IMG/VR virus record: IMGVR_UViG_3300022934_000118
Coordinates: 1 to 28,901 of that record
Source of the DNA: a virus
DNA: 28,901 nt
Strand: one strand, 5' to 3'
Both the position numbers and the translations under genes were made by a program. The notes beneath the pieces were generated by a model that was not told the origin of the DNA, did no database searches, and saw only the letters and a program-made list of their open reading frames with translations. Positions within the stretch are counted from its first letter, which is position 1. Each line of letters starts with the position of its first letter. Positions 7,207 to 28,901 of this stretch are shown piece after piece.

Positions 7207-8010
7207 TTACCCGGGATACGACTTCATCACCTCAGACCGCGCCACGAAAAGCTCTACCGCATCGGTGTCGTCGTTGGTCAAAGTGAACACACCGTAGTGT
7301 CCGAGGATGCCATGCGACTCTACCACTTGGTTCTTGATGCCAAGCCACAAGGGGTTCTGTATCGTTGGTGTAGCACCGGTGTTATTGTGTACCACTTGGT
7401 TGGTTCCAGCGGGCTTATTGATAGTAATACTATTGACCTGACCGGCAAAAGAGATGTCCGTATACGGCGGCTCGGAGAAATAGAACGCGTCGCCGACACT
7501 CAAGATGCTTCCGACATTCGTGGTCAAAGCAAAATCCACTACACCTGCGGCCTGTGCTGTACTCTTTCCGATACCGTTCAAGGAGCGAAGGGCATACTCG
7601 TCAAGGTCGGCGGGGTTGGTGCCGCTGTTGCGAACGAAAGCAAAGAAGTCGCCCTCCTTCTTTTCGAAATAGTCGGCGTTCATAAAGCCCGTGTCCTGCT
7701 GGTCCGACGTCAGTGTAGCCGCCCAAGCACGGTTGCCCTCGTACTGTAACGTCTTGAAAATCTTGTTGACGATAGGCTCGTTATTGAAGACGCTCGTAAT
7801 AGTGCTATTGTATGCTGCCGGATTGCCCTCCCCGTCTACGGGAAGGCCATAGAAGTTGTTGCGCACCTCGTTGGTGTTGTGGCGGAAGATATTGCCACCA
7901 CTGAACGTATACAGGTACTGGTTCATACCCTGAATCCACTCTGGTTCAAAGGAGTAGAACGAAGGCCACCCCTCAGCAGGGGGGCTGTATGTCAAAGTAT
8001 AGCTTGGCAT
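7207..8010 (-). CDS. Tail/muzzle-associated protein, companion of the stabilization protein
   Basis: A 267-residue, aromatic- and Asn-rich, beta-type protein with no membrane segment. The stretch S-F-Y-S-F-E-P-E-W-I-Q-G-M-N-Q-Y-L-Y-T-F near the N-terminus, followed by R-N-N-F-Y-G and I-F-K-T-L-Q-Y-E-G-N, resembles the C-terminal part of large stabilization or muzzle proteins in Bacteroidota phages as I remember them. Here it is a separate gene. Its ATG overlaps the stop of the 1286-residue gene (TGATG), so the two are likely translated together and may bind each other at the tail tip. This is an assignment from memory of sequence patterns and from context, not from a search. Confidence 0.6.
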   Translation of the reverse strand: MPSYTLTYSPPAEGWPSFYSFEPEWIQGMNQYLYTFSGGNIFRHNTNEVRNNFYGLPVDGEGNPAAYNSTITSVFNNEPIVNKIFKTLQYEGNRAWAATLTSDQQDTGFMNADYFEKKEGDFFAFVRNSGTNPADLDEYALRSLNGIGKSTAQAAGVVDFALTTNVGSILSVGDAFYFSEPPYTDISFAGQVNSITINKPAGTNQVVHNNTGATPTIQNPLWLGIKNQVVESHGILGHYGVFTLTNDDTDAVELFVARSEVMKSYPG

Positions 8011-11000
8011 CAGTTCGAATAATCCCAGATTAGGTAGAGGTAGTCGCCCGTGCTTGGCATCGTGAAGTCACCAGTGTATTCTGGCTGAGCGCCAGTTGGC
8101 GTGACATCAATAACGGCAGGGTCAGCAAGCAGGTTAACTACGTCGGCCTCTATGTATCGCGTATTGCTCCGCAACAACCGGAACCTATCCGAAGTCCGAA
8201 GTGTATAGTTGTCGGGGAAGATGCGGTTGTAAATCATCGTGATGTCGCTACCGTCGGTAGGCACCAGATTAGAACCCTGAGCATCTTCAATCTCAACCCA
8301 GCTAGAAACCAAGGGAGCCGGAGTATCGTCAATGAACTTCACCGGCGTACTGCTGACAGGTGACGTAAAGTCTCCCGAAGACCATTGGTACTGACTGTGA
8401 ATCGTAAGGTTCGCTTCTTCGGGTCGAGACAACGTAGCCAAGACCACCGTGACGTTGTTGACCTGCGGACACTTCACGATGACCTGAACCACAAAACGCT
8501 CTGTGCCAGTGTAGCTGATGGAGACGTCCGCACTGGTGACGTCGACCTCATCCTTGTTGATGGTAAACGAACCGGAACTTCCGTCACCAATGGTTCCAGA
8601 ATCCGTGTCCGTGCCGTCATAGCTGGCCGTAATCACAGCACTATCCGTGCCGCTGGCCTGAACGACATTGTAACTCACCGTGGCGTTGCCCACCACGTTA
8701 CCGAGGTCCACGCAGTACGACTCACCCGCCGAAGTTAGAAGGAACGTCTGTACCGTATTGCACTCGATGCACGGCTCCTCGCCCGGCAAGAACACCTCGT
8801 TGCTGGCCAAGACGTACTCGTTCATGTACGGGTCGTAGCCGCCGAGCTTTTGGGTGTTGAAGCTCTCGATGAACTCGTCGCGGAACCAGCTCCGCATACC
8901 GTTCTCGCTGATGACCTCGAGCTTCTCATTCTGCCCATCGCCGTAAAGGTGAATGACAGAGCCGCGCTTGGCGTCGGTAAAGAACTTGTGTGGCCCCCAC
9001 TCCGCGAAGCTCTCGGGGTTGTTGCTGATGCCAAAGTCCTCAACGCGGGCGACCTGCGTACCCAGAACTTCCGGCACCGAAGCCACAACGCTCTCGCCGG
9101 TGGTGTCGGTAAGCAGGTTCTTGCCCGCCAAGACGTAGCTAATCTTGTCCTCCTGCAACGTGAGGATATCGGTACGCCTACCGAAGAGTTTCTCTACAGG
9201 CCCATAGCTGTCCTCTAGCGGCTTGAAGTTGAGCAAGCCAAGGTTGAACTCGTTGAGCTTGTTTACGTTCGTCTCATCGTTGTATACGCCGCTGTATGTA
9301 AGGTCTGCAAAGCGACGAATCTCTTTGTAATCCTGAGCACTTACAGTAGAAACACGGTTGCCCAATGTGATGGGTTTCCCGCTCACTGAATCACGAATCT
9401 TGTAGCTCTCGACACCATTGCCGTAACTGATGCAGTTAAAAAACGAGGTGTCAATAATCGCGGGGAGAGAAGCCGTTTGGTCTTGAGTGTTGGCCCTGTA
9501 CCGACGAACGTCATCGGGGTCAGTCACAATCTGAAAGGACTCATCAGACTCGTACCACAAATCGGGCTGGGCGTCCGTTGGCTCCGTCTCAAACACGAAC
9601 GTGCCATTGGCTTTGATGATGGTCCACGTCGCGTTAATCCGAGAACGACGGTTGGGACTACTGCCAGAACCAAAACCACCGGTACACCTATTGGTTCCAA
9701 TAGCAATAAAGCTAATGTCAGTGGGAGTAGTTACGTTATCAGTGTAGAATCGGATTTGGTTGGTACTCGTAGACGCCGTCATCAAATACGAGCCGCCACC
9801 AGTAGCCGTTGTCGTATTGTAACAGGCGTTACTGGGTATGGCCTCATCCGGGTCTCCTGAAAAGCCAATCTGTGATTCGATGGCGTCTTGAACACCTTCA
9901 GTTGGGTCGTCAAACCACTCGAAGATATAGTCATGGTCGTTTTGGACCACAAAGTCCAATTCAAACTCCATCGTTCGCGTCTCGCAACCCGCGTCACCGC
10001 GCCCTTCACGAACGAAGTTCATCTCCAGTTTGATGCGACTACCTGCGGGAATGGTGGGTCCAGCAGTTGCGTCTGTTTCAAACTCCTGTCCAGTCGGGGC
10101 AGTAGCACCGGTTCCACAATAAACCAAAACCGGGAATGTTCCGGCACCAGTAGTGATACTATTCTGGTCCGACCCCCCGTTGGTGCCAGCAGACTGACGC
10201 CCAAGGAACAGGTTGTTGCCGTCGAGGGTGGCGTTGAAGTCGGGCAAAATTTTCATGTAGGTGCCACCTACACTGCCCGTACCCAACTCGTCAGCAGCAT
10301 ACGCCTTTTTCTCCAGTACCGTAGCGTAAGCACACGTTGTCATAGGCCCCGAAGCATCGCGCTTGACTATATACCGGTCCCCCTCCTCTACCTTGGCAGC
10401 GTTCTCGGCTTCAAGAAGGAAATAAGCGTGGCCTTGAAACTCCTCTACAATATTTGTGTAGATGGTCTCATACAGGTCTCGGTCGGCCTTGATGGCAAGC
10501 TTGTACCGAGTGGCCCAATATGGCGCCCGCATAGCAGCAGGAATCTGAACTTGAATGCCATTGCTGTAAATGGAGCTCGCACACGGGAGCTGAATATCAT
10601 TGCCGAAGTTGACCAGCACCGTACTAGAGCGGTTAAAATCATCCATATAGATGATGCCAATCTCATAGCTTCGGTTGCTGTGCAAACTCCGCAAGGGCTT
10701 ACCATCATTGTCATCGGGGGATAGGTTCACCCGAGTTTCGAAAACCTGATACCCGAACTTGATGGGCTGGTCGTTCTCGTCAATCAGGTCATAACCCTCC
10801 ACATAGTTTCCGTACACCAGACGGTTGCCCATCATGGTTTGGGCTTTGGCAAACCGGGGTACGTTGTCGTAAAGACGGAGAATCTCACTCTCAGGAAGGA
10901 GTGTGAAAATCTTGCTCTTGTCAAACGTGATGGTATAGTCAGAGTTGTCAGCCAAGGCCGCAGTAGCCTTGTCCACTTTCTCAATGACACGGATGATACT

Positions 11001-11870
11001 ATCATCCATTTCCTTGAACAGGATATCAATGCCCTTGACCAACGCACTGCCAGTGCGAACGGTGACCTCGCAGCTATTGATGAGGTTTTCCATGCCCTCA
11101 TTCAGGAATGACTCTGGCGTAAAGTTAAAGTCCTTGCTCACGAAAGCGGGGCTGCTGAACTGAGAAGTCGCAGAGTACTCGCCGTCCTCATACTCATACC
11201 GATAGGCAAAGCAAATCAGACGGTCCTCCATATAGTTGTTGCGGTCGCCGTCAAGAATCTGTGTCTCCACCTCCGGGGCGTCAACAGGTGGGCGCTTGAT
11301 GACAAGGATGTCGTCTGCCAAGAGACCGCTGTCGACATACGCCAAGGGCTCAGGGTAAGCCTTGGTAACATTGATGCGGCGCGGAGGGTTGTAGTCGTCG
11401 GTGAAGAACAGCAGGTCGTCAACCAAATCAACGCCAGTAATCAAATACTGAGGGTTGAAGTTGAGCGTCGTGCGCGTATCGGTCGGGTCTGTGGGGTCGT
11501 CGATGCTGACAACATGGTATGTCAGCAGGTCGCTGCGCATGTTGTACGAGACAATCATGTCCAGCTTACCCGTAGCTCCAACAGCGGTGAAAGAAGGGTC
11601 GTGAACAAACCAATAGATGGTCTCTTCAGCTCCATCAGCATACGAGCCAATACAGGTGGCATCGTCGCTAAGCGCGTCACCCGTGTCGGGATACACCAGC
11701 GTAGTAAGCTGCGTATTGCCCTTGGTATTTTCTACCGCGCCTATCTCCGAGTCCTCCGTGGAACCCATGCGGATATTGAGCGCGTCGATATACTCTCCGT
11801 CGGGAACAAGGCGCTCGTCGACGCTCTTGTTCATCCGCCCCTTAATGAAGTTCCTGACCAGATTCGCCAT
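8010..11870 (-). CDS. Tail stabilization / muzzle-type protein
   Basis: A giant 1286-residue protein. Residues 8-40 hold the hallmark I-K-G-R-M-N-K-S, then D-E-R-L-V-P-D-G-E-Y-I-D-A-L-N, then G-S-T-E, which I associate with the stabilization (muzzle) protein of crAss-like and related Bacteroidota phages. After it the protein is beta-rich with repeated short Gly/Asp turns, consistent with a propeller-like tail component. A middle insert (about residues 560-760, Thr/Gly/Cys-rich) and a C-terminal Ig-like or fibronectin-like stretch (about 1055-1160, starting near E-C-N-T-V-Q-T-F) look like surface modules. The ATG overlaps the stop of the ring gene upstream (TAATG). The position, after two ring proteins and before the internal proteins, matches the tail end of a short-tailed virion. 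Function is from family knowledge. Confidence 0.8.
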   Translation of the reverse strand: MANLVRNFIKGRMNKSVDERLVPDGEYIDALNIRMGSTEDSEIGAVENTKGNTQLTTLVYPDTGDALSDDATCIGSYADGAEETIYWFVHDPSFTAVGATGKLDMIVSYNMRSDLLTYHVVSIDDPTDPTDTRTTLNFNPQYLITGVDLVDDLLFFTDDYNPPRRINVTKAYPEPLAYVDSGLLADDILVIKRPPVDAPEVETQILDGDRNNYMEDRLICFAYRYEYEDGEYSATSQFSSPAFVSKDFNFTPESFLNEGMENLINSCEVTVRTGSALVKGIDILFKEMDDSIIRVIEKVDKATAALADNSDYTITFDKSKIFTLLPESEILRLYDNVPRFAKAQTMMGNRLVYGNYVEGYDLIDENDQPIKFGYQVFETRVNLSPDDNDGKPLRSLHSNRSYEIGIIYMDDFNRSSTVLVNFGNDIQLPCASSIYSNGIQVQIPAAMRAPYWATRYKLAIKADRDLYETIYTNIVEEFQGHAYFLLEAENAAKVEEGDRYIVKRDASGPMTTCAYATVLEKKAYAADELGTGSVGGTYMKILPDFNATLDGNNLFLGRQSAGTNGGSDQNSITTGAGTFPVLVYCGTGATAPTGQEFETDATAGPTIPAGSRIKLEMNFVREGRGDAGCETRTMEFELDFVVQNDHDYIFEWFDDPTEGVQDAIESQIGFSGDPDEAIPSNACYNTTTATGGGSYLMTASTSTNQIRFYTDNVTTPTDISFIAIGTNRCTGGFGSGSSPNRRSRINATWTIIKANGTFVFETEPTDAQPDLWYESDESFQIVTDPDDVRRYRANTQDQTASLPAIIDTSFFNCISYGNGVESYKIRDSVSGKPITLGNRVSTVSAQDYKEIRRFADLTYSGVYNDETNVNKLNEFNLGLLNFKPLEDSYGPVEKLFGRRTDILTLQEDKISYVLAGKNLLTDTTGESVVASVPEVLGTQVARVEDFGISNNPESFAEWGPHKFFTDAKRGSVIHLYGDGQNEKLEVISENGMRSWFRDEFIESFNTQKLGGYDPYMNEYVLASNEVFLPGEEPCIECNTVQTFLLTSAGESYCVDLGNVVGNATVSYNVVQASGTDSAVITASYDGTDTDSGTIGDGSSGSFTINKDEVDVTSADVSISYTGTERFVVQVIVKCPQVNNVTVVLATLSRPEEANLTIHSQYQWSSGDFTSPVSSTPVKFIDDTPAPLVSSWVEIEDAQGSNLVPTDGSDITMIYNRIFPDNYTLRTSDRFRLLRSNTRYIEADVVNLLADPAVIDVTPTGAQPEYTGDFTMPSTGDYLYLIWDYSN

Positions 11871-22651: not shown

Positions 22652-22869
22652 AAGTTGATATTGTATTCAATTGAAGTAGGCATCATCGTGAACTCCTTCC
22701 ATAAAACCACGATGTCGCCGCTTTCAATATAGATGAGGATACCCCCTGTCTCCTCGTTGTATTTAATTAAATGCACATGGTGGGACCCACCGAGAACCGG
22801 CTGCCCCACCACGTAACACATAGAGTCCTTATAGTTAGGACCGATGCAGACCTTTCTAATGTCTTGCAT
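22648..22869 (-). CDS. Conserved small phage protein, unknown function
   Basis: A 73-residue protein, M-Q-D-I-R-K-V-C-I-G-P-N-Y-K at the start and M-P-T-S-I-E-Y-N-I-N-F at the end, with a beta-rich middle (I-L-I-Y-I-E-S-G-D-I-V-V-L-W-K-E-F). Two Cys (8 and 18) and a G-S-H-H-V-H cluster are visible but there is no known metal motif. I recall similar short proteins ending in S-[IL]-E-Y-N-[IL]-[DN]-F in marine phages, without function. It is joined to the fibre gene by TAATG and to the GroES-like gene by TTGA, so translation of the three is probably coupled. Confidence 0.65.
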   Translation of the reverse strand: MQDIRKVCIGPNYKDSMCYVVGQPVLGGSHHVHLIKYNEETGGILIYIESGDIVVLWKEFTMMPTSIEYNINF

Positions 22870-24077
22870 TAAAACTCTACAATACGATACTGTATGTTGA
22901 GCTCAAGGTTTCCGTCACCAGTAGAAGATGGAACAGATGCCGGAGCAAAATTGAGTTCGGTGTTTTCGGTCAAGGCGCCACTAGTCGTCAAAGACATGGC
23001 ACGAATTTGAGTCGCTGGAACCTGAAGGTACGACTCGTCGAGCTCAAACTGCGGAGAAGTGGAGTTTGTGTACAACCTCAACGGAGCAGCAAATGAATAC
23101 GTCACAGACACATAGTTGTACTTCGCTGCGGCAGAGACGACCTGAATGTACTTGCCCGCGCCGGGGGCGGCCACAACTTGAACCGGAGTGGCCGCGTTGA
23201 GTTGAGCCGAAGAGATAGTAGCTGTAGCGACATACGTCCCCGGGTCAGACCAAACAACACCGCCCGCACCAGTGGTATCGGCGGTAAGAACTTGTCCGTC
23301 GGTACCGAAAGCACCATTGCGGTCGAGGAGCTGCTGGTCAATGGTAACAGATAGGAAGTCCCCACTACCTACGTCGAGGCTATTAAGCACTGCGCTGGTA
23401 GCAATGACACTACCGTTGGTGAGCGTAATACCGACATTGTTAGCTAAGGCCCCGTTATCCAATACGTATTGGAGGTCAACATTGATGTTCGAAGCCCCGA
23501 TAATCTGTCCCTGAGCATTGACGTCAATCTGCGGGGTCGTATACGTTCCCGCAGTAACAGCAGTGTTGGCAAGGTCGATAGTACCGGTAGAGGTAATCGT
23601 ACCTCCATTGAGGCCCGTGCCGGCAGTAACGGAAGTAACCGTTCCACCCCCACTAGCCGTGTTCGTGATAGTAATCTCGCTCGGGCCAGTGTTGGATACC
23701 TGAAGTCCGGGGCCTCCAGACACGATGGTTACGTCGCCGTTCAACGTATTGACCGTGTCTACACCCCCGCTAAGCGAACCGTTAGCTGCCGAAAGAATAC
23801 GGCCCTGAGCGTCAACTTCAACCGTAGCAAGGCTGTACGTGCCAGCGGCAACACCGGTATTGTTCAAGTCTACGACTACATCCCCTGTAGTCGGCTGAGC
23901 TTTAACTGCGCCCGGCCCGGTAACGGAGTTGACAACACCGCCGCCGCCGGTGACGAAATCGGAGAGGTCTTGAACCGTAAAGTTCTTGGTGCTCCCATCG
24001 GTAGCCTCGGTACCAATGACTTTGTCCCCGCTAGATAGCGGGGTCGTTGCGTCATTGTACGTTTTAATCTTAGCCAT
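22869..24077 (-). CDS. Repeat-built fibre protein
   Basis: 402 residues from the ATG at 24077 (M-A-K-I-K-T-Y-N-D); the frame extends 20 codons further but that part lies over the small membrane protein gene. The N-terminal 40 residues (T-P-L-S-S-G-D-K-V-I-G-T-E, then F-T-V-Q-D-L-S-D-F) look like a virion-attachment domain shared by phage fibres. Residues 45-200 hold two copies of a fibre repeat (N-T-x-V-x-A-G-T-Y ... V-[DN]-A-Q-G-[RQ]-I) separated by V-T-S-V-T-A-G-T-G-L-N-G-G-T-I-T. The C-terminal 120 residues form a beta-rich head. It is either a tail fibre or a head fibre; the position next to packaging and head genes leaves both open. Confidence 0.75.
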   Translation of the reverse strand: MAKIKTYNDATTPLSSGDKVIGTEATDGSTKNFTVQDLSDFVTGGGGVVNSVTGPGAVKAQPTTGDVVVDLNNTGVAAGTYSLATVEVDAQGRILSAANGSLSGGVDTVNTLNGDVTIVSGGPGLQVSNTGPSEITITNTASGGGTVTSVTAGTGLNGGTITSTGTIDLANTAVTAGTYTTPQIDVNAQGQIIGASNINVDLQYVLDNGALANNVGITLTNGSVIATSAVLNSLDVGSGDFLSVTIDQQLLDRNGAFGTDGQVLTADTTGAGGVVWSDPGTYVATATISSAQLNAATPVQVVAAPGAGKYIQVVSAAAKYNYVSVTYSFAAPLRLYTNSTSPQFELDESYLQVPATQIRAMSLTTSGALTENTELNFAPASVPSSTGDGNLELNIQYRIVEF

Positions 24078-24234
24078 TCTTACGACGGTCGCCAGTAATA
24101 GCAGTAATAAGGATATCGAGATAACCAAATACAGCATTGTCAGATTCTGTCGGAGTGAGATTCACGACGACCTTAATGAAGGCCATCGCGGCGATGAGGA
24201 GCTCAATCCAGTATTCAGTGATGAATTCAAACAT
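24070..24234 (-). CDS. 54-aa membrane protein of the lysis cassette, holin-like
   Basis: A short gene encoding M-F-E-F-I-T-E-Y-W-I-E-L-L-I-A-A and so on for 54 residues. One membrane segment spans residues 9-26, then a T-P-T-E-S-D linker and a second moderately hydrophobic helix (36-48), ending in a basic tail (G-D-R-R-K-N-G). The ATG overlaps the amidase stop by 8 bases and the TAA overlaps the fibre ATG by 8 bases. This tight fit on both sides, plus the membrane-then-charged-tail layout, supports a real gene. Short proteins of this kind with an L-T-P-[ST]-E-[ST]-D stretch are familiar next to lysins of marine phages. Holin or accessory lysis function is inference. Confidence 0.65.
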   Translation of the reverse strand: MFEFITEYWIELLIAAMAFIKVVVNLTPTESDNAVFGYLDILITAITGDRRKNG

Positions 24235-24652
24235 GGTCAACAAGATAAGGGAGTTTTTCTGATACGATGAATGATGGACACGCCTTGCTGCTAAACTCGT
24301 TGTGGCCGTGCAAGGTCAAAGGTCCGAAAAGATTCCTTAGCGAGGTAACGACCTTGTACAGGCTGAAGAGCTGCTGGTGCGTCAGCGTGTCTTTCGGGTT
24401 GCCATCGCTATCAGTACCGCCAACATACACCACACCAACAGAATCTTTATTGTGCCCACGGACGTGGGCTCCAGCAACATCAAGCGGTCGGCCCCGCTCA
24501 ATGGTCCCGTCAAGGAGAATAACATAGTGATACCCAATGTCTGACCAATTGCGTGGAGGTGAGGTGTGCCACCGCCGAATCTCCTCAGTACTCACGTCGC
24601 GACCCTCAGGGGTGGCTGTACAATGTAGTATGATTCGGGTTAGCTCCCTCAC
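24227..24652 (-). CDS. N-acetylmuramoyl-L-alanine amidase (endolysin)
   Basis: 141 residues from a GTG at 24652 (GTGA overlap with the upstream stop). It is a T7-lysozyme/Amidase_2 enzyme: zinc ligands H10 (I-L-H-C-T-A-T), H117 (L-H-G-H-N-E) and C125 (K-A-C-P-S-F), with catalytic Y41 (G-Y-H-Y-V-I) and K123. The single domain has the usual length (T7 lysozyme has about 150 residues) and no signal peptide, so release needs a holin. It cleaves the bond between the glycan strand and the peptide stem of the cell wall at the end of infection. It sits between two small membrane proteins, making a compact lysis cassette. Confidence 0.92.
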   Translation of the reverse strand: MRELTRIILHCTATPEGRDVSTEEIRRWHTSPPRNWSDIGYHYVILLDGTIERGRPLDVAGAHVRGHNKDSVGVVYVGGTDSDGNPKDTLTHQQLFSLYKVVTSLRNLFGPLTLHGHNEFSSKACPSFIVSEKLPYLVDHV

Positions 24653-24858
24653 TTAATTCCCTTTTGGGCCAGCAAAATCTTCAGCTCATCGACAGCGGTG
24701 ACCAGCTTCTCGAGCATATTCATCACCTGTAGCTCCTGCTTTTCCAGCATGGCGATGCGACCCTTCAGCTTGCCGACCTCAGTCTGCAACTTGAAGTATA
24801 CACCAATCAATGCACCCGCGAGGGTGAGGATTTCGAATAGACTAATGGCATTAGGCAT
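24649..24858 (-). CDS. Membrane-anchored coiled-coil protein, holin- or spanin-like
   Basis: A 69-residue protein: one N-terminal membrane segment (about 7-22, L-F-E-I-L-T-L-A-G-A-L-I-G-V-Y-F), then a coiled coil (25-62, with L-K-G-R-I-A-M-L-E-K and M-L-E-K-L-V-T-A-V-D-E-L heptads). This topology is common for phage small lysis proteins encoded just before the endolysin, but holin and inner-membrane spanin subunit cannot be separated by eye. Upstream of the ATG is AAAGGAA, one of the few Shine-Dalgarno-like sites in the window. The stop overlaps the amidase GTG by four bases. Confidence 0.65.
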   Translation of the reverse strand: MPNAISLFEILTLAGALIGVYFKLQTEVGKLKGRIAMLEKQELQVMNMLEKLVTAVDELKILLAQKGIK

Positions 24859-24944
24859 GATGCGTTCCTTTCATAATCAGGAGCCTCAAACACCACCTTG
24901 TAGGAATTGTGACCCCCGCCTATGTAAATGTACTGAAGCTGCAT
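24807..24944 (-). CDS. Possible 45-aa protein overlapping the lysis gene start
   Basis: The ATG is one base after the TAA of the 36-residue gene (TAAAATG), and the frame runs 45 codons to a TGA inside the coiled-coil gene. The first 25 residues (M-Q-L-Q-Y-I-Y-I-G-G-G-H-N-S-Y-K-V-V-F-E-A) have a plausible beta pattern; the rest is the overlap region and looks less natural. It would fill an otherwise empty 87-base gap, as expected in this packed genome. No family is recognised. Confidence 0.35.
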   Translation of the reverse strand: MQLQYIYIGGGHNSYKVVFEAPDYERNASCLMPLVYSKSSPSRVH

Positions 24945-24945
24945 T

Positions 24946-25056
24946 TTATGGCTCGATAGGCGGGAACCACCCTAGGGCTTCGGCTTCCACTTCTGTCAGT
25001 TGGGTCGAGGTAGAGGGGATGAGCTGTGGCTCGACGGGGAGGTATACGGTAGCCAT
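24946..25056 (-). CDS. 36-aa internally deleted copy of the 136-aa cassette protein
   Basis: The ATG overlaps the upstream stop (TAATG). The first 12 residues (M-A-T-V-Y-L-P-V-E-P-Q-L) equal those of the gene at 26103-26513, and the remaining 24 (I-P-S-T-S-T-Q-L-T-E-V-E-A-E-A-L-G-W-F-P-P-I-E-P) match the C-terminus of the same protein. About 100 central residues are missing in frame. The joint falls at CAGCT, present at both edges of the missing part in the longer gene. It may be a functional mini-protein or a remnant. Confidence 0.7.
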   Translation of the reverse strand: MATVYLPVEPQLIPSTSTQLTEVEAEALGWFPPIEP

Positions 25057-25070
25057 TAGTAGATTCCGAA
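25021..25070. repeat. 50-bp direct repeat, left copy
   Basis: Matches 26478-26527 with one mismatch (25062 against 26519). It covers the last codons of the adhesin gene, the overlapping stop/start and the first 12 codons of the following small gene, marking one border of the duplicated cassette. Confidence 0.85.
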
Positions 25071-26099
25071 ATATGAGTTGAGGTCATTATTTATGCTGGA
25101 CATATTACTTTGATGGGTGCTAGTGTCATAAATAATAACCTCTTGAATAGTTCCAGTCAGACCGTTTGAAGGCCCTGCACTATATCTACAACCGACATAC
25201 GCATTACCTGGATTTGTGACGTTGGTTCCGTAACCATGTGTCGCAGTATCGAAAGTGCCGTTATTGCGTTGCAGACTTGCGTTTGTAGAATCAGATTTGA
25301 AACTGGCTAGACTGTGCGGGGTTGGTTTAGTGCCCTGAATTCTGACGTTCTTGTTGGCGCCACCTGCTGAACTACTCAGGTCTACAGCGATGTATCCGAA
25401 CGTAGTTGTACCGTTGCCCGTGTTGATATTACTGGCGGCGGTTCTGTTAAAATCCTCTCCACTAATATCAGCACAAGAAACGATACCAGAAAAATTGACA
25501 CTGGTCGTTTCTCGGAAAACATAAAAACAGGTGCGAATATCCATACGAAACGCAGGAGAGGTAATTTGCAAATGCCTTGTACTGCTGTTATCAAATTGTA
25601 GAGCAGGTCGCGAGGTAGTAGCACCCTCAGTAATCAAGTCGGTGTCGACCGTGCCCGAATGGATTTGCGGCTGGCTTGCTGGCGTTGATTGCGTAGCATG
25701 ATTTGCGTTGCCACTCTGGTCTTTCCACTCATCTACGAAACACGAAGCCGTATTGGTTAAGCTATCGGCGTTGCTGAAAGCTAAGCCCCCGTTGTAGGGA
25801 GGAACTGTACCCACATTCAGAAACTCTCCAAGCGTGGTCGCGTTAGAACCGCCCGCGCTGAAGTTTCTGACCGGAGAATCGAGGGAAATGGTAGGTGTTG
25901 CAAGACTCGTGTCGAAAACCACATCAGCCTCATCGTCATTGCCAGTATTTCCCGCCCCCGTTACGCGACGGACACGCATGGCTACGGTCGCCCCTGACTT
26001 CAACTGACGCACAGAGTAGGCTGCCGCCGCGCCGGTATAGGTGTCCAGCAGAAACGCCGAAGGCACCGTCAATCCATCTATCTCAGCAACACTAGCCAT
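25056..26099 (-). CDS. Adhesin-like fibre protein, one arabinofuranosidase-B-like domain
   Basis: A 347-residue beta-rich protein. After M-A-S-V-A-E-I-D-G-L-T-V comes L-L-D-T-Y-T-G-A-A-A-A-Y-S-V-R-Q-L, then W-K-D-Q-S-G-N-A-N-H-A-T-Q and R-P-A-L-Q-F-D. This order resembles the concanavalin-like catalytic-type domain of alpha-L-arabinofuranosidase B (Pfam ArabFuran-catal) often found in phage fibre proteins, where it probably binds sugar; I cannot see proof of catalysis. It ends in L-N-S-Y-F-G-I-Y, shared with the 563-residue paralog at 26513-28204. It begins three bases after the stop of the 136-residue gene. It is likely a receptor-binding or head-surface adhesin. Confidence 0.72.
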   Translation of the reverse strand: MASVAEIDGLTVPSAFLLDTYTGAAAAYSVRQLKSGATVAMRVRRVTGAGNTGNDDEADVVFDTSLATPTISLDSPVRNFSAGGSNATTLGEFLNVGTVPPYNGGLAFSNADSLTNTASCFVDEWKDQSGNANHATQSTPASQPQIHSGTVDTDLITEGATTSRPALQFDNSSTRHLQITSPAFRMDIRTCFYVFRETTSVNFSGIVSCADISGEDFNRTAASNINTGNGTTTFGYIAVDLSSSAGGANKNVRIQGTKPTPHSLASFKSDSTNASLQRNNGTFDTATHGYGTNVTNPGNAYVGCRYSAGPSNGLTGTIQEVIIYDTSTHQSNMSSINNDLNSYFGIY

Positions 26100-26102
26100 G
26101 TC

Positions 26103-26513
26103 TTAGGGTTCAATAGGGTCTGGGAACCACCCGAGGGCCTCAGCCTCGACCTGAGTAAGCTGGGTGGAAGTGGAAGGGATAAGCTGCCCGAACGGGACGG
26201 AGCTGCCCCGGTTGGCGTCAATGTATGCAACCAGCCCGTCCTTCTCCGCTTGGGGAACTTCGGGTAGCAGGGCGAGGAGCTCGGTCAAATCCACCAAGGG
26301 GTTGATGTAAATCTCCTCGGTCGTGTCGCCTACTATAGCCACCTCGCCCGTGACGGGGTGGGTGATGCGGGGGTAGTAGTATTTCGTTATGTCCTGCGGA
26401 GATTGCAGGGAGGCCGGGCGCCGGAGGCACCACACTTGGGCGTCGATAGCTTCGGCGCGTTCTGCTGAGGTCATGCCGAGCTGTGGCTCGACGGGGAGGT
26501 ATACGGTAGCCAT
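26103..26513 (-). CDS. 136-aa fibre-linked protein, possible fibre assembly factor
   Basis: Begins M-A-T-V-Y-L-P-V-E-P-Q-L, continues with S-A-E-R-A-E-A-I-D-A-Q-V-W, R-I-T-H-P-V-T-G-E-V-A-I-V-G-D and a helical section (L-L-A-L-L-P-E-V-P-Q-A-E-K-D-G-L-V-A-Y-I), and ends A-L-G-W-F-P-D-P-I-E-P. I recall similar small proteins beside fibre genes of marine phages; the Trp-Phe-Pro end and location recall fibre chaperones, but nothing proves it. The ATG overlaps the stop of the upstream adhesin (TAATG). A shortened copy lies at 24946-25056. Confidence 0.65.
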   Translation of the reverse strand: MATVYLPVEPQLGMTSAERAEAIDAQVWCLRRPASLQSPQDITKYYYPRITHPVTGEVAIVGDTTEEIYINPLVDLTELLALLPEVPQAEKDGLVAYIDANRGSSVPFGQLIPSTSTQLTQVEAEALGWFPDPIEP

Positions 26514-26527
26514 TAGTAAATTCCGAA
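26478..26527. repeat. 50-bp direct repeat, right copy
   Basis: The partner of 25021-25070, spanning the same gene junction in the longer cassette. The offset between copies is 1457 bases, close to the size of one adhesin plus one small gene. Confidence 0.85.
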
Positions 26528-28204
26528 GTAGCTGTTTGTGTCCGTGTGGATGCCGTTTCTATTTGTCGCGCTTTGTGCGCTGCCCCACAAAATATACTCT
26601 TGCACGTTGCCGTGGATGCCGAATCTCTCGTTCGGGCCAGTCCGAAGGCCTCCAATTCTTAAAGAACTTAGGCTATTTGTCCCCGCATTGCCGCTCACTA
26701 TACTGCTATTGTTTTTAAACATTTCCGAGCTGGTGGTATTGAACACCGTAAACAACATCATGTCCGCGTCTTTTTGACTAGTTGATACCAATTCTGTACC
26801 TGCATAAAATCTCAAGACATCAGGGGTGCCGTCGGACGCAATAGAAAGCTCGGCACTTCCTGAAATTGGATTCAGCCAACACATCTCATCAGTAGTGGTT
26901 ACAATATCCCTTGTAATAATGCTGGCCGTAATCGGTTGTGACAAGGACGAGGCGAAAGTTAAATCTAACGAAGTGTTAGCTAAAGGAACGGCATCTGTAG
27001 TTTCAAATTGCAAGGATGGGCGGACCGTTGTAGTGCCGCTCGTAATGACCGTCGTACCGTTGTATATCTTCGGTTGAATTGTGTTGAGGGCTTGGTCAAT
27101 ATGGTTGCCGTTGGTGCTTTGGTCCCACCAACGAGTTACGTATCCGTTCGCGGTCTGACAGAAATCCGCTATGGCCTGAGTGTCCAAGTCTCCGTTAGCG
27201 TCAAAACCAATATTAGCCTCCTCATCGTCGGAGTCCCTGCGAATCCTCAAAGCGATAAGCGCCTTATTTGATAGCTGACGGACGGAGTAGGCTGCTTCGG
27301 CTCCTGTGTAGGTGGCAAGGAGTCCCGATGTAGGTGCGTCGGTGGGTTGGTAGATGAGGTACTCTTCGTTGATGTTAGCCTCGATGCCTGAAGTTTGGCC
27401 AGCTCCGTTTTGGTCAGACCCCCACAAAACAAATTCTTGCAACCAAGACCTATTGCCCGTACTGTTATTAGGCCAACGAGCACCTATTAACGTCGCATCT
27501 AAAGCAGAGCTATTCGTAAACGTAACCCCCGCAGGTTGTATGTCTGCGACTGAAACCTTACCGAAGCTGCTAGACCCATTACCTACTCCAAAGAATGCGT
27601 GATGACCCATAGGCACGGTATTGCCACCGTCTATATCAGTGCCGAGCCAAACTGTCTCAGTGGAATTCCGAAATCTTAGTTGGGTATTGTTACCGAATAA
27701 ATACGCATCGGAATCTTCCTCCGTGACGCTACTCAGAGTAAATGGCTGGCTCACACTGGTCCAACTAGTGTCAAATCCACTGCGCTCTCCGGCTTTAAAA
27801 GCGGGCAATCCATTGACAAGAATTGGTGACCCAGCATCTACAAGCAATGGGCCATTAGTAGTGTCTTGAGTAATATCAGTCCCTGAACCAGTGCCCCCGC
27901 TCTGAGATTGGTCATACCACGTTACGACTACGCCGTTATTTCCAGCCCCGACAAATGTTACAATGGCATCAATATCCAAAATACCATTGGAATCAAAACC
28001 AAAATCTTGCTCCCCAATACCAGTGCCAGTACTATATACTCGGCAGCACGCCCCCGTGTAGGCAGAGTTTAAGCGTCTAATAGAATATGCAAACGTGGCG
28101 TTGGGGTAGGTGTCCAACAATCGCGTACTCGCCGTCACCGTCAGCCCGTCAAACTCCGCCACGTTATCAATGGCAGTTCCGTTAAGTTCGCTTATATCAG
28201 GCAA
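26513..28204 (-). CDS. Adhesin-like fibre protein with two arabinofuranosidase-B-like domains
   Basis: 563 residues from a TTG at 28204 that overlaps the upstream stop by 8 bases (P-D-I-S-E-L-N-G-T-A-I-D-N-V-A-E-F-D-G); a GTG at 28252 would add 16 residues and overlap more. Domain 1 spans about 25-285 (L-L-D-T-Y-P-N-A-T-F-A-Y-S-I-R-R-L, then T-W-Y-D-Q-S). Domain 2 spans about 290-563 (L-L-A-T-Y-T-G-A-E-A-A-Y-S-V-R-Q-L, then R-W-W-D-Q-S-T-N-G-N-H). Domain 2 is closest to the single domain of the 347-residue paralog, and both end S-Y-F-G-I-Y. No signal peptide. The likely role is carbohydrate recognition on the host surface. The family call is by pattern. Confidence 0.72.
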   Translation of the reverse strand: MPDISELNGTAIDNVAEFDGLTVTASTRLLDTYPNATFAYSIRRLNSAYTGACCRVYSTGTGIGEQDFGFDSNGILDIDAIVTFVGAGNNGVVVTWYDQSQSGGTGSGTDITQDTTNGPLLVDAGSPILVNGLPAFKAGERSGFDTSWTSVSQPFTLSSVTEEDSDAYLFGNNTQLRFRNSTETVWLGTDIDGGNTVPMGHHAFFGVGNGSSSFGKVSVADIQPAGVTFTNSSALDATLIGARWPNNSTGNRSWLQEFVLWGSDQNGAGQTSGIEANINEEYLIYQPTDAPTSGLLATYTGAEAAYSVRQLSNKALIALRIRRDSDDEEANIGFDANGDLDTQAIADFCQTANGYVTRWWDQSTNGNHIDQALNTIQPKIYNGTTVITSGTTTVRPSLQFETTDAVPLANTSLDLTFASSLSQPITASIITRDIVTTTDEMCWLNPISGSAELSIASDGTPDVLRFYAGTELVSTSQKDADMMLFTVFNTTSSEMFKNNSSIVSGNAGTNSLSSLRIGGLRTGPNERFGIHGNVQEYILWGSAQSATNRNGIHTDTNSYFGIY

Positions 28205-28901
28205 TTTTAATCCAGTCTTGAGAGGGAATGAAAAGAACCTTCGACGCACCAATCTGGTGGCCCACTACGCGAGAGTATTCGTCGGTAGTGCTGGGCTGAG
28301 TGGCCGTAAGCTCGCCAGCCGTAACTGTATCGACGTACAGGATATCGCCCGCCGAACCCGGGGTGTGGTCGAGGATGCCGATACCCTGAATGAGCATGCC
28401 GTCGGTAGCGGGAGTAGTGCCCAAAGCCATAGCCAGCAACCCCTTGGTGGTGTCCTCCCCACCTACGCTCGCGTCGACAGGCTCCCAGTCGCCAGAAAAG
28501 AACGTATACACCTTGCCCGCCGAAGTGGTGTTGGTATTGCCGAAATAGACGACCGTACCCTCAGCGTCGCCAGCGGTGGATAGAGCCGCAGTGCCGGCGT
28601 TGAAGTTTATCTCCTGACCCGCGACGTTGGCGGTGACAGTATCAGAGAAAGACAACTGCCCCGAAGCGTCAGTAACCATAGGTTGGTTGGCGACAGTGCC
28701 GTCAGCCTCAGGAAGGGTGAGCGTATACGTAGCCGCAGCAGCGTGGAGAGGGCTCTTGATAGTAACCCCGTGGCTGTTCTGCTCGCAGTTGAGCTTGATG
28801 GAACCAGCGTTGGTGCCGCCAGCGTCCTGATTGCCCCGAACCTCAACGACGCCCGTGCCGTTAGAGTCAAGGGCGATGTTCCCGTTGGTGGTGCTGGTAT
28901 C
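28197..28901 (-). CDS. Tail-fibre-type structural protein, 5' end cut by window
   Basis: The frame is open from the right window edge to a TGA at 28197, giving 234 visible residues; the start lies outside. The first visible part (G-T-G-V-V-E-V-R-G-N, then I-K-L-N-C-E-Q-N-S-H-G-V-T-I-K-S-P and A-A-A-T-Y-T-L-T-L-P) is a stretch I know well from fibre and baseplate-like proteins of marine phages, including cyanophages. It continues with D-A-S-G-Q-L-S-F-S-D-T. The C-terminal half (V-Y-F-G-N-T-N ... G-L-L-A-M-A-L-G ... G-I-L-D-H-T-P-G-S-A-G-D-I-L-Y-V-D) is a compact beta domain. It is a virion fibre part upstream of the duplicated adhesin cassette. Confidence 0.78.
   Translation of the reverse strand, partial: DTSTTNGNIALDSNGTGVVEVRGNQDAGGTNAGSIKLNCEQNSHGVTIKSPLHAAAATYTLTLPEADGTVANQPMVTDASGQLSFSDTVTANVAGQEINFNAGTAALSTAGDAEGTVVYFGNTNTTSAGKVYTFFSGDWEPVDASVGGEDTTKGLLAMALGTTPATDGMLIQGIGILDHTPGSAGDILYVDTVTAGELTATQPSTTDEYSRVVGHQIGASKVLFIPSQDWIKIA

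Follow-up and report, generated by a model that had tools for sequence, protein, structure and literature searches.

How does a phage locus come to hold two adhesin genes that end in the same way and pass into the same downstream gene, while the bodies of the adhesins are different? We addressed this question in a metagenomic virus record of 28,901 bases, a genome fragment that was analysed over its whole length and is referred to as the window. All genes of the cassette lie on the minus strand, where the 5' to 3' order is the end of UPS, adhesin 1, a small gene called MATVY, adhesin 2, a MATVY remnant, a small lysis-type gene and an Amidase_2 endolysin (Table 1). The records compared with the window are likewise metagenomic and fragmentary, and all functions named below are putative.

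Gene plan and junction

Table 1. Features of the adhesin-MATVY locus, in the order of transcription
Feature	Position	Strand	Basis or remark
UPS, 3' part	28197..28901	-	phrog_31104, unknown function; syntenic in relatives
Adhesin 1, 563 aa, two GH54-fold domains	26513..28204	-	Family profile, Pfam, relatives
Adhesin 1 domains	28141-27350 and 27361-26516	-	Family profile
Junction block, copy 1	26478..26527	-	Adhesin 3' end, TAATG, first MATVY codons
MATVY, full length, 136 aa	26103..26513	-	No match of the family in Pfam or PHROGs
Adhesin 2, 347 aa, one GH54-fold domain, leader MASVAEIDGLTV	25056..26099	-	Family profile, predicted model
Adhesin 2 domain	26066-25059	-	Family profile
Junction block, copy 2	25021..25070	-	Sequence alignment, blastn
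MATVY remnant, 36 codons	24946..25056	-	N-terminal 12 and C-terminal 24 codons
Small lysis-type gene	24649..24858	-	Weak holin phrog_1296 match
Endolysin, Amidase_2	24227..24652	-	Domain match

The stop of UPS overlaps the start region of adhesin 1, whose TTG start is equivalent to the ATG of the relatives L006 and L007 (MPDIS/MPDIA...). The small lysis-type gene is the commonest gene 3' of the cassette in relatives. A 45-codon ORF on the 3' side of the cassette (24807-24944, minus strand) is conserved in the relative L011 and overlaps the start of the small lysis-type gene. Behind the endolysin lies a fibre-like gene (22869-24137, minus strand; phrog_38058, tail fibre); the residues at its start, MLYLVISISLLLLLLATVVR, are perhaps part of a membrane ORF that overlaps it, and the L011 homologue begins with MAKIKTYNDA.

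As part of the overall explanation set out below, and with the same moderate confidence, we assign the locus to receptor binding in an uncultured phage of podovirus type. The portal is P22-like, and the kin of the terminase are found in Cellulophaga, Flavobacterium and Tenacibaculum phages and in a complete 60.9 kb podovirus from Manatee Spring. Among named phage records, neither MATVY nor adhesin 2 had a match. Diversification by a diversity-generating retroelement (DGR) or an invertase was rejected, as the 28.9 kb record, itself a fragment, gave no match to RVT_1 (reverse transcriptase), to resolvases or to integrases; the inverted repeats of the window are weak and none of them bracket the adhesin-MATVY units.

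The first-pass annotation had described two successive units of the same plan, sharing a 50-base block with one mismatch, and both statements were confirmed. At each junction (26513-26517 for the first and 25056-25060 for the second) the adhesin ends in ...NSYFGIY, the stop and start codons overlap in TAATG, and the downstream gene begins with MATVYLPVEPQL. The two blocks differ at a single base, and the similarity continues at 83% over 76 nt; blastn of the junction copies returned 53 nt at 96% identity (E 3.6e-17), far above chance for a stretch of 6.9 kb. The adhesin bodies have indeed diverged strongly, yet they are homologous beyond the junction, residues 307-579 of adhesin 1 aligning with adhesin 2 at 27.7% identity (E 1e-19).

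Comparison of diverged gene pairs revealed conservation of the junction at the DNA level. Synonymous codon identity is high at codons 2-8 of MATVY and then drops toward background, with codons ~21-24 scoring almost as high. The first 24 bases of MATVY (8 codons) are identical in 43 diverged gene pairs, and no other non-overlapping block exceeds 3 such pairs. Synonymous identity also seems raised over approximately the last 20 adhesin codons, where the alignment is less certain. Control genes without an overlap showed no excess at their starts; identical 8-codon blocks occur in the interior of the portal gene as well (22 of 2346 pairs). The conservation of the first 8 MATVY codons is consistent with exchange at a constant junction and could partly come from other constraints.

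The predicted adhesin fold and the MATVY partner gene

Two arabinofuranosidase-B-like domains had been assigned to one adhesin and one to the other. This count stood when a family profile was used, whereas the Pfam family ArabFuran-catal passed only once, in the second domain of adhesin 1 (residues 318-390, 28.8 bits; cut-off 25). Adhesin 2 had no Pfam match; its kinship comes from the family profile and the predicted fold. The AlphaFold model of adhesin 2 (mean pLDDT 76.7, pTM 0.83, with residues 208-246 poorly modelled) matched GH54 arabinofuranosidases with a Z of 19.8 over 247 residues (2d43), followed among solved structures by the tailspike of cyanopodophage Pan3 (Z 14.8). The domain is conserved in its N-terminal part and its C-terminal helix (residues 327-344 in adhesin 2) and hypervariable in between; S29, R31, Q128 and E320 are the sole residues invariant across 40 domains. 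Since the sequence alignment to solved GH54 enzymes, also consulted for a conserved catalytic acidic pair, spans only chain residues 16-91 (~75 N-terminal residues) and the middle is hypervariable, we rejected an active arabinofuranosidase as unsupported. The domain probably binds rather than hydrolyses, and its ligands are most likely host surface glycans.

Scanning viral contigs at the protein and profile level yielded homologues of MATVY. They constitute a previously unannotated phage family, tied to one adhesin fold, with more than 100 distinct copies in viral contigs among the matches listed. Comparison of 21 members with Pfam-A and PHROGs gave no meaningful match and no sequence kinship to described tail-fibre chaperone families; a scan of ~85,000 bacterial and archaeal genomes found no relative, and no account of the family was found in the literature searched. 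The predicted model (pLDDT 85) had weak ferredoxin-like matches among solved structures, and with a best Z of only 3.5 we rejected naming the family from its fold. A viral model library contained two close models (74% and 26% identity), both unnamed. In one contig (L134:360-1170) one MATVY gene immediately follows another of a different subtype, without an adhesin in between.

Where upstream sequence is readable, nearly all MATVY homologues begin at the stop codon, or a little way past it, of a gene that ends in the adhesin domain, mostly with a TAATG or ATGA overlap. Among the matches listed, MATVY follows 59 of 64 domain-ended genes in loci derived from MATVY or terminase; for a scan that set out from the adhesin the figure is 39 of 79. 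The loci on which the association is measured were recruited partly via MATVY itself. A combined census of 158 distinct domain ends, again among the matches listed, counted 107 followed by full-length MATVY, 21 by another small family and 20 by something else. The association is weaker from adhesin to MATVY than from MATVY to adhesin, and some of the other followers weakly resemble MATVY (L216, by eye; L130). In L013 a large tail protein, linked to muzzle proteins by a start in common with the window's, carries the adhesin domain as a fusion at its end, and MATVY still lies behind it. An alternative partner family, A3 (~77 residues, GYKYxTEQEAI...), replaces MATVY behind adhesins of the same fold (L192:2757-2990, L171:3797-4042 and 14 others); homology between A3 and MATVY was rejected (hhalign probability 4.7%).

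MATVY lies directly downstream of a receptor-binding gene, as do chaperones of the Tfa, gp38 and V22 gp27 type, and its likeliest role would be that of an assembly partner or folding factor of the adhesin. Membership of a known chaperone family was not supported by the sequence comparison. We tentatively allow a different role, which we hold to be possible and on the unlikely side, in which MATVY remains attached to the adhesin as a structural tip or cap, or is an unrelated small protein that is only co-transcribed. The missing chaperone kinship would agree with this, as would those adhesins of the family that are followed by other small genes or by none; strict adjacency, coupling and the company of MATVY and the domain in L013 argue against mere co-transcription, while a cap and a chaperone look alike on the present evidence.

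Copy number, probable exchange and loss of the partner core

The locus had been proposed to duplicate and then diversify, with the conserved junctions as recombination handles, and the copy number of the unit in relatives had been suggested as a check. The arrangement proved not to be fixed: L003 and L009 contain two complete units, most relatives contain one, and L025 has two adhesins ahead of a single MATVY. The proposal thus holds in that the cassette recurs, with variable copy number and a constant junction, but not in its assumption of duplication in place. A tree built from 40 domains distributes those of the window over three separate positions, as does every one of its bootstrap trees: adhesin 2 clusters with L003 (99/89) and the second domain of adhesin 1 with L153 (99/92), the first domain being without a firm place. 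Because the three domains occupy three tree positions, the second unit appears to have been recruited from a shared pool rather than copied in place.

Plain tandem duplication in place, with rapid divergence of the binding domains around a junction that just evolves slowly, would explain why both units have the same gene order and 50-base block, and L003 and L009 likewise carry two units. We nevertheless consider it improbable, since the tree joins two of the three domains, with high support, to domains from other phages, and since the 3' part of the short MATVY is nearer to L004/L017, at 85-86% over 66 nt, than to the full-length copy of the window, at 74% over 84 nt.

The divergence of adhesins and that of MATVY are also decoupled among close relatives. 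Among 21 close relatives, adhesin identity did not follow the identity of the MATVY C-parts (rho 0.008, p 0.91) and followed that of the MATVY N-terminal part weakly at most (rho 0.12, p 0.07); median identity was 34% for the adhesins and 84% for the MATVY C-parts. A modest adhesin-MATVY correlation persists in the whole set of 42 (0.23-0.32), as expected from old shared descent. The nearest relative in the lysis genes, L011, has MATVY, the 10-residue leader of adhesin 2 and the flanks in common with the window, and carries at the second adhesin position an unrelated DUF285 adhesin behind the same leader. This DUF285-repeat adhesin (L011:1513-2961) has a 79-residue small gene of its own (L011:2961-3200), and small genes at a similar place in L030 encode 77 and 101 residues. 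The DNA of the window and L011 becomes alignable again, at 91% identity, almost exactly at the end of the MATVY remnant. The junction is constant and the bodies are not, as the idea of recombination handles has it; from the decoupled divergence, the replacement in L011 and the DNA-level conservation, rather than from an observed crossover, we infer that recombination probably occurs there.

The second MATVY gene has lost ~99 codons between two CAGCT(C/T) repeats, which are CAGCTC and CAGCTT at the breakpoints in the full-length copy, and its frame is intact. L263 has a comparable internal deletion that is out of frame, and L160, L288 and L209 keep only the first 8-10 MATVY codons, or nearly so. 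The MATVY body has been lost with the first 8-12 codons left in five contexts, and the window and L263 additionally keep the last codons. The search for such starts standing alone, here called tags, relied on those 8 codons, so that start-keeping cases were favoured; the family profile found no remnant without a start, apart from fragments at contig edges. As the start is kept in all known MATVY remnants, it may matter. Three contigs (L117, L125 and L126) carry a tag and then a full MATVY, which is ambiguous between readings. We dropped the general explanation of stand-alone tags as leftovers carried in by adhesins, as L263 and the window are internal deletions with both ends; the tags of L160 and L288 are probably internal deletions as well.

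It is conceivable, and in our estimate rather unlikely, that the first 8 MATVY codons are kept for reasons of translation or mRNA and not for recombination, internal deletions sparing them since the 3' end of the adhesin needs the region. The five contexts with a lost body and a retained start are in line with this; other gene starts without an overlap show no excess, and the second adhesin of L140 is followed by neither tag nor MATVY, both of which speak against it. A bolder idea, which we regard as doubtful, is that selection maintains these codons, together with the adhesin tail, as a site of DNA-level exchange, even after MATVY loss, with adhesins circulating as mobile cassettes among related phages, or else that the retained N-terminal strand peptide TVYLPV alone serves the adhesin.

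Exchangeable adhesins with a constant junction and a dedicated MATVY partner are the best reading of the locus, and one that we consider fairly probable. The adhesin genes, with their common domain of GH54 arabinofuranosidase beta-sandwich fold, would be exchangeable units. The constant junction would consist of the adhesin end, ~20 codons long, and codons 1-8 of MATVY; the short leader would be the other end, and bodies would enter and leave between the two, probably via recombination with related phages, with copy number and domain number varying as a result. MATVY would be produced by translational coupling at TAATG and would partner specifically with the constant part of the adhesin domain, most likely in assembly or folding. 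The second adhesin would have been acquired in this locus, the MATVY behind it losing its core in the in-frame deletion between the repeats, and one intact MATVY, that of the first unit, may suffice for both adhesins. Service in trans as a rule was rejected, given two contigs (21.6 and 37 kb, possibly incomplete) with a tag and without a full MATVY behind the adhesin or elsewhere.

Relation to known systems

The shuffling of protein fragments in phage host-interaction genes is well known (PMC10684548), so what is new here is a partner family without annotation that is linked to one fold, along with a constant junction and the repeated loss of the partner core. The locus allows adhesin exchange, copy number and partner loss to be tracked in nature. 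If MATVY is an assembly factor, one partner would admit many adhesins, which would help in predicting host range from metagenomes.

The window resembles crAss-like phages in two tail genes, whose products (8013-11870 and 7210-8010, minus strand) match Crassvirus muzzle families, and differs from them in the kin of its terminase. The predicted adhesin fold agrees with GH54 alpha-L-arabinofuranosidase B (1wd3, 2d43) over the whole catalytic domain; unlike the enzyme, the window domain has a hypervariable middle and probably a binding role. The Pan3 tailspike (9vyh) is a solved phage tailspike similar in fold to adhesin 2, with only 14% identity. The closest parallel in gene plan is provided by Alteromonas phages V22 (gp26/gp27) and A5 (gp8/gp9), in which a tail fibre is followed by a downstream chaperone (PMC7289586, PMC10579305). 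In contrast to these, MATVY resembled no chaperone in sequence or fold within the libraries searched, its own chaperone role is putative, the window adhesin is a GH54-type sandwich, and the second partner is degenerate. Both systems place a small partner gene immediately behind a receptor-binding gene, both modules occur in distantly related phages, and both show domain duplication within the fibre or adhesin.
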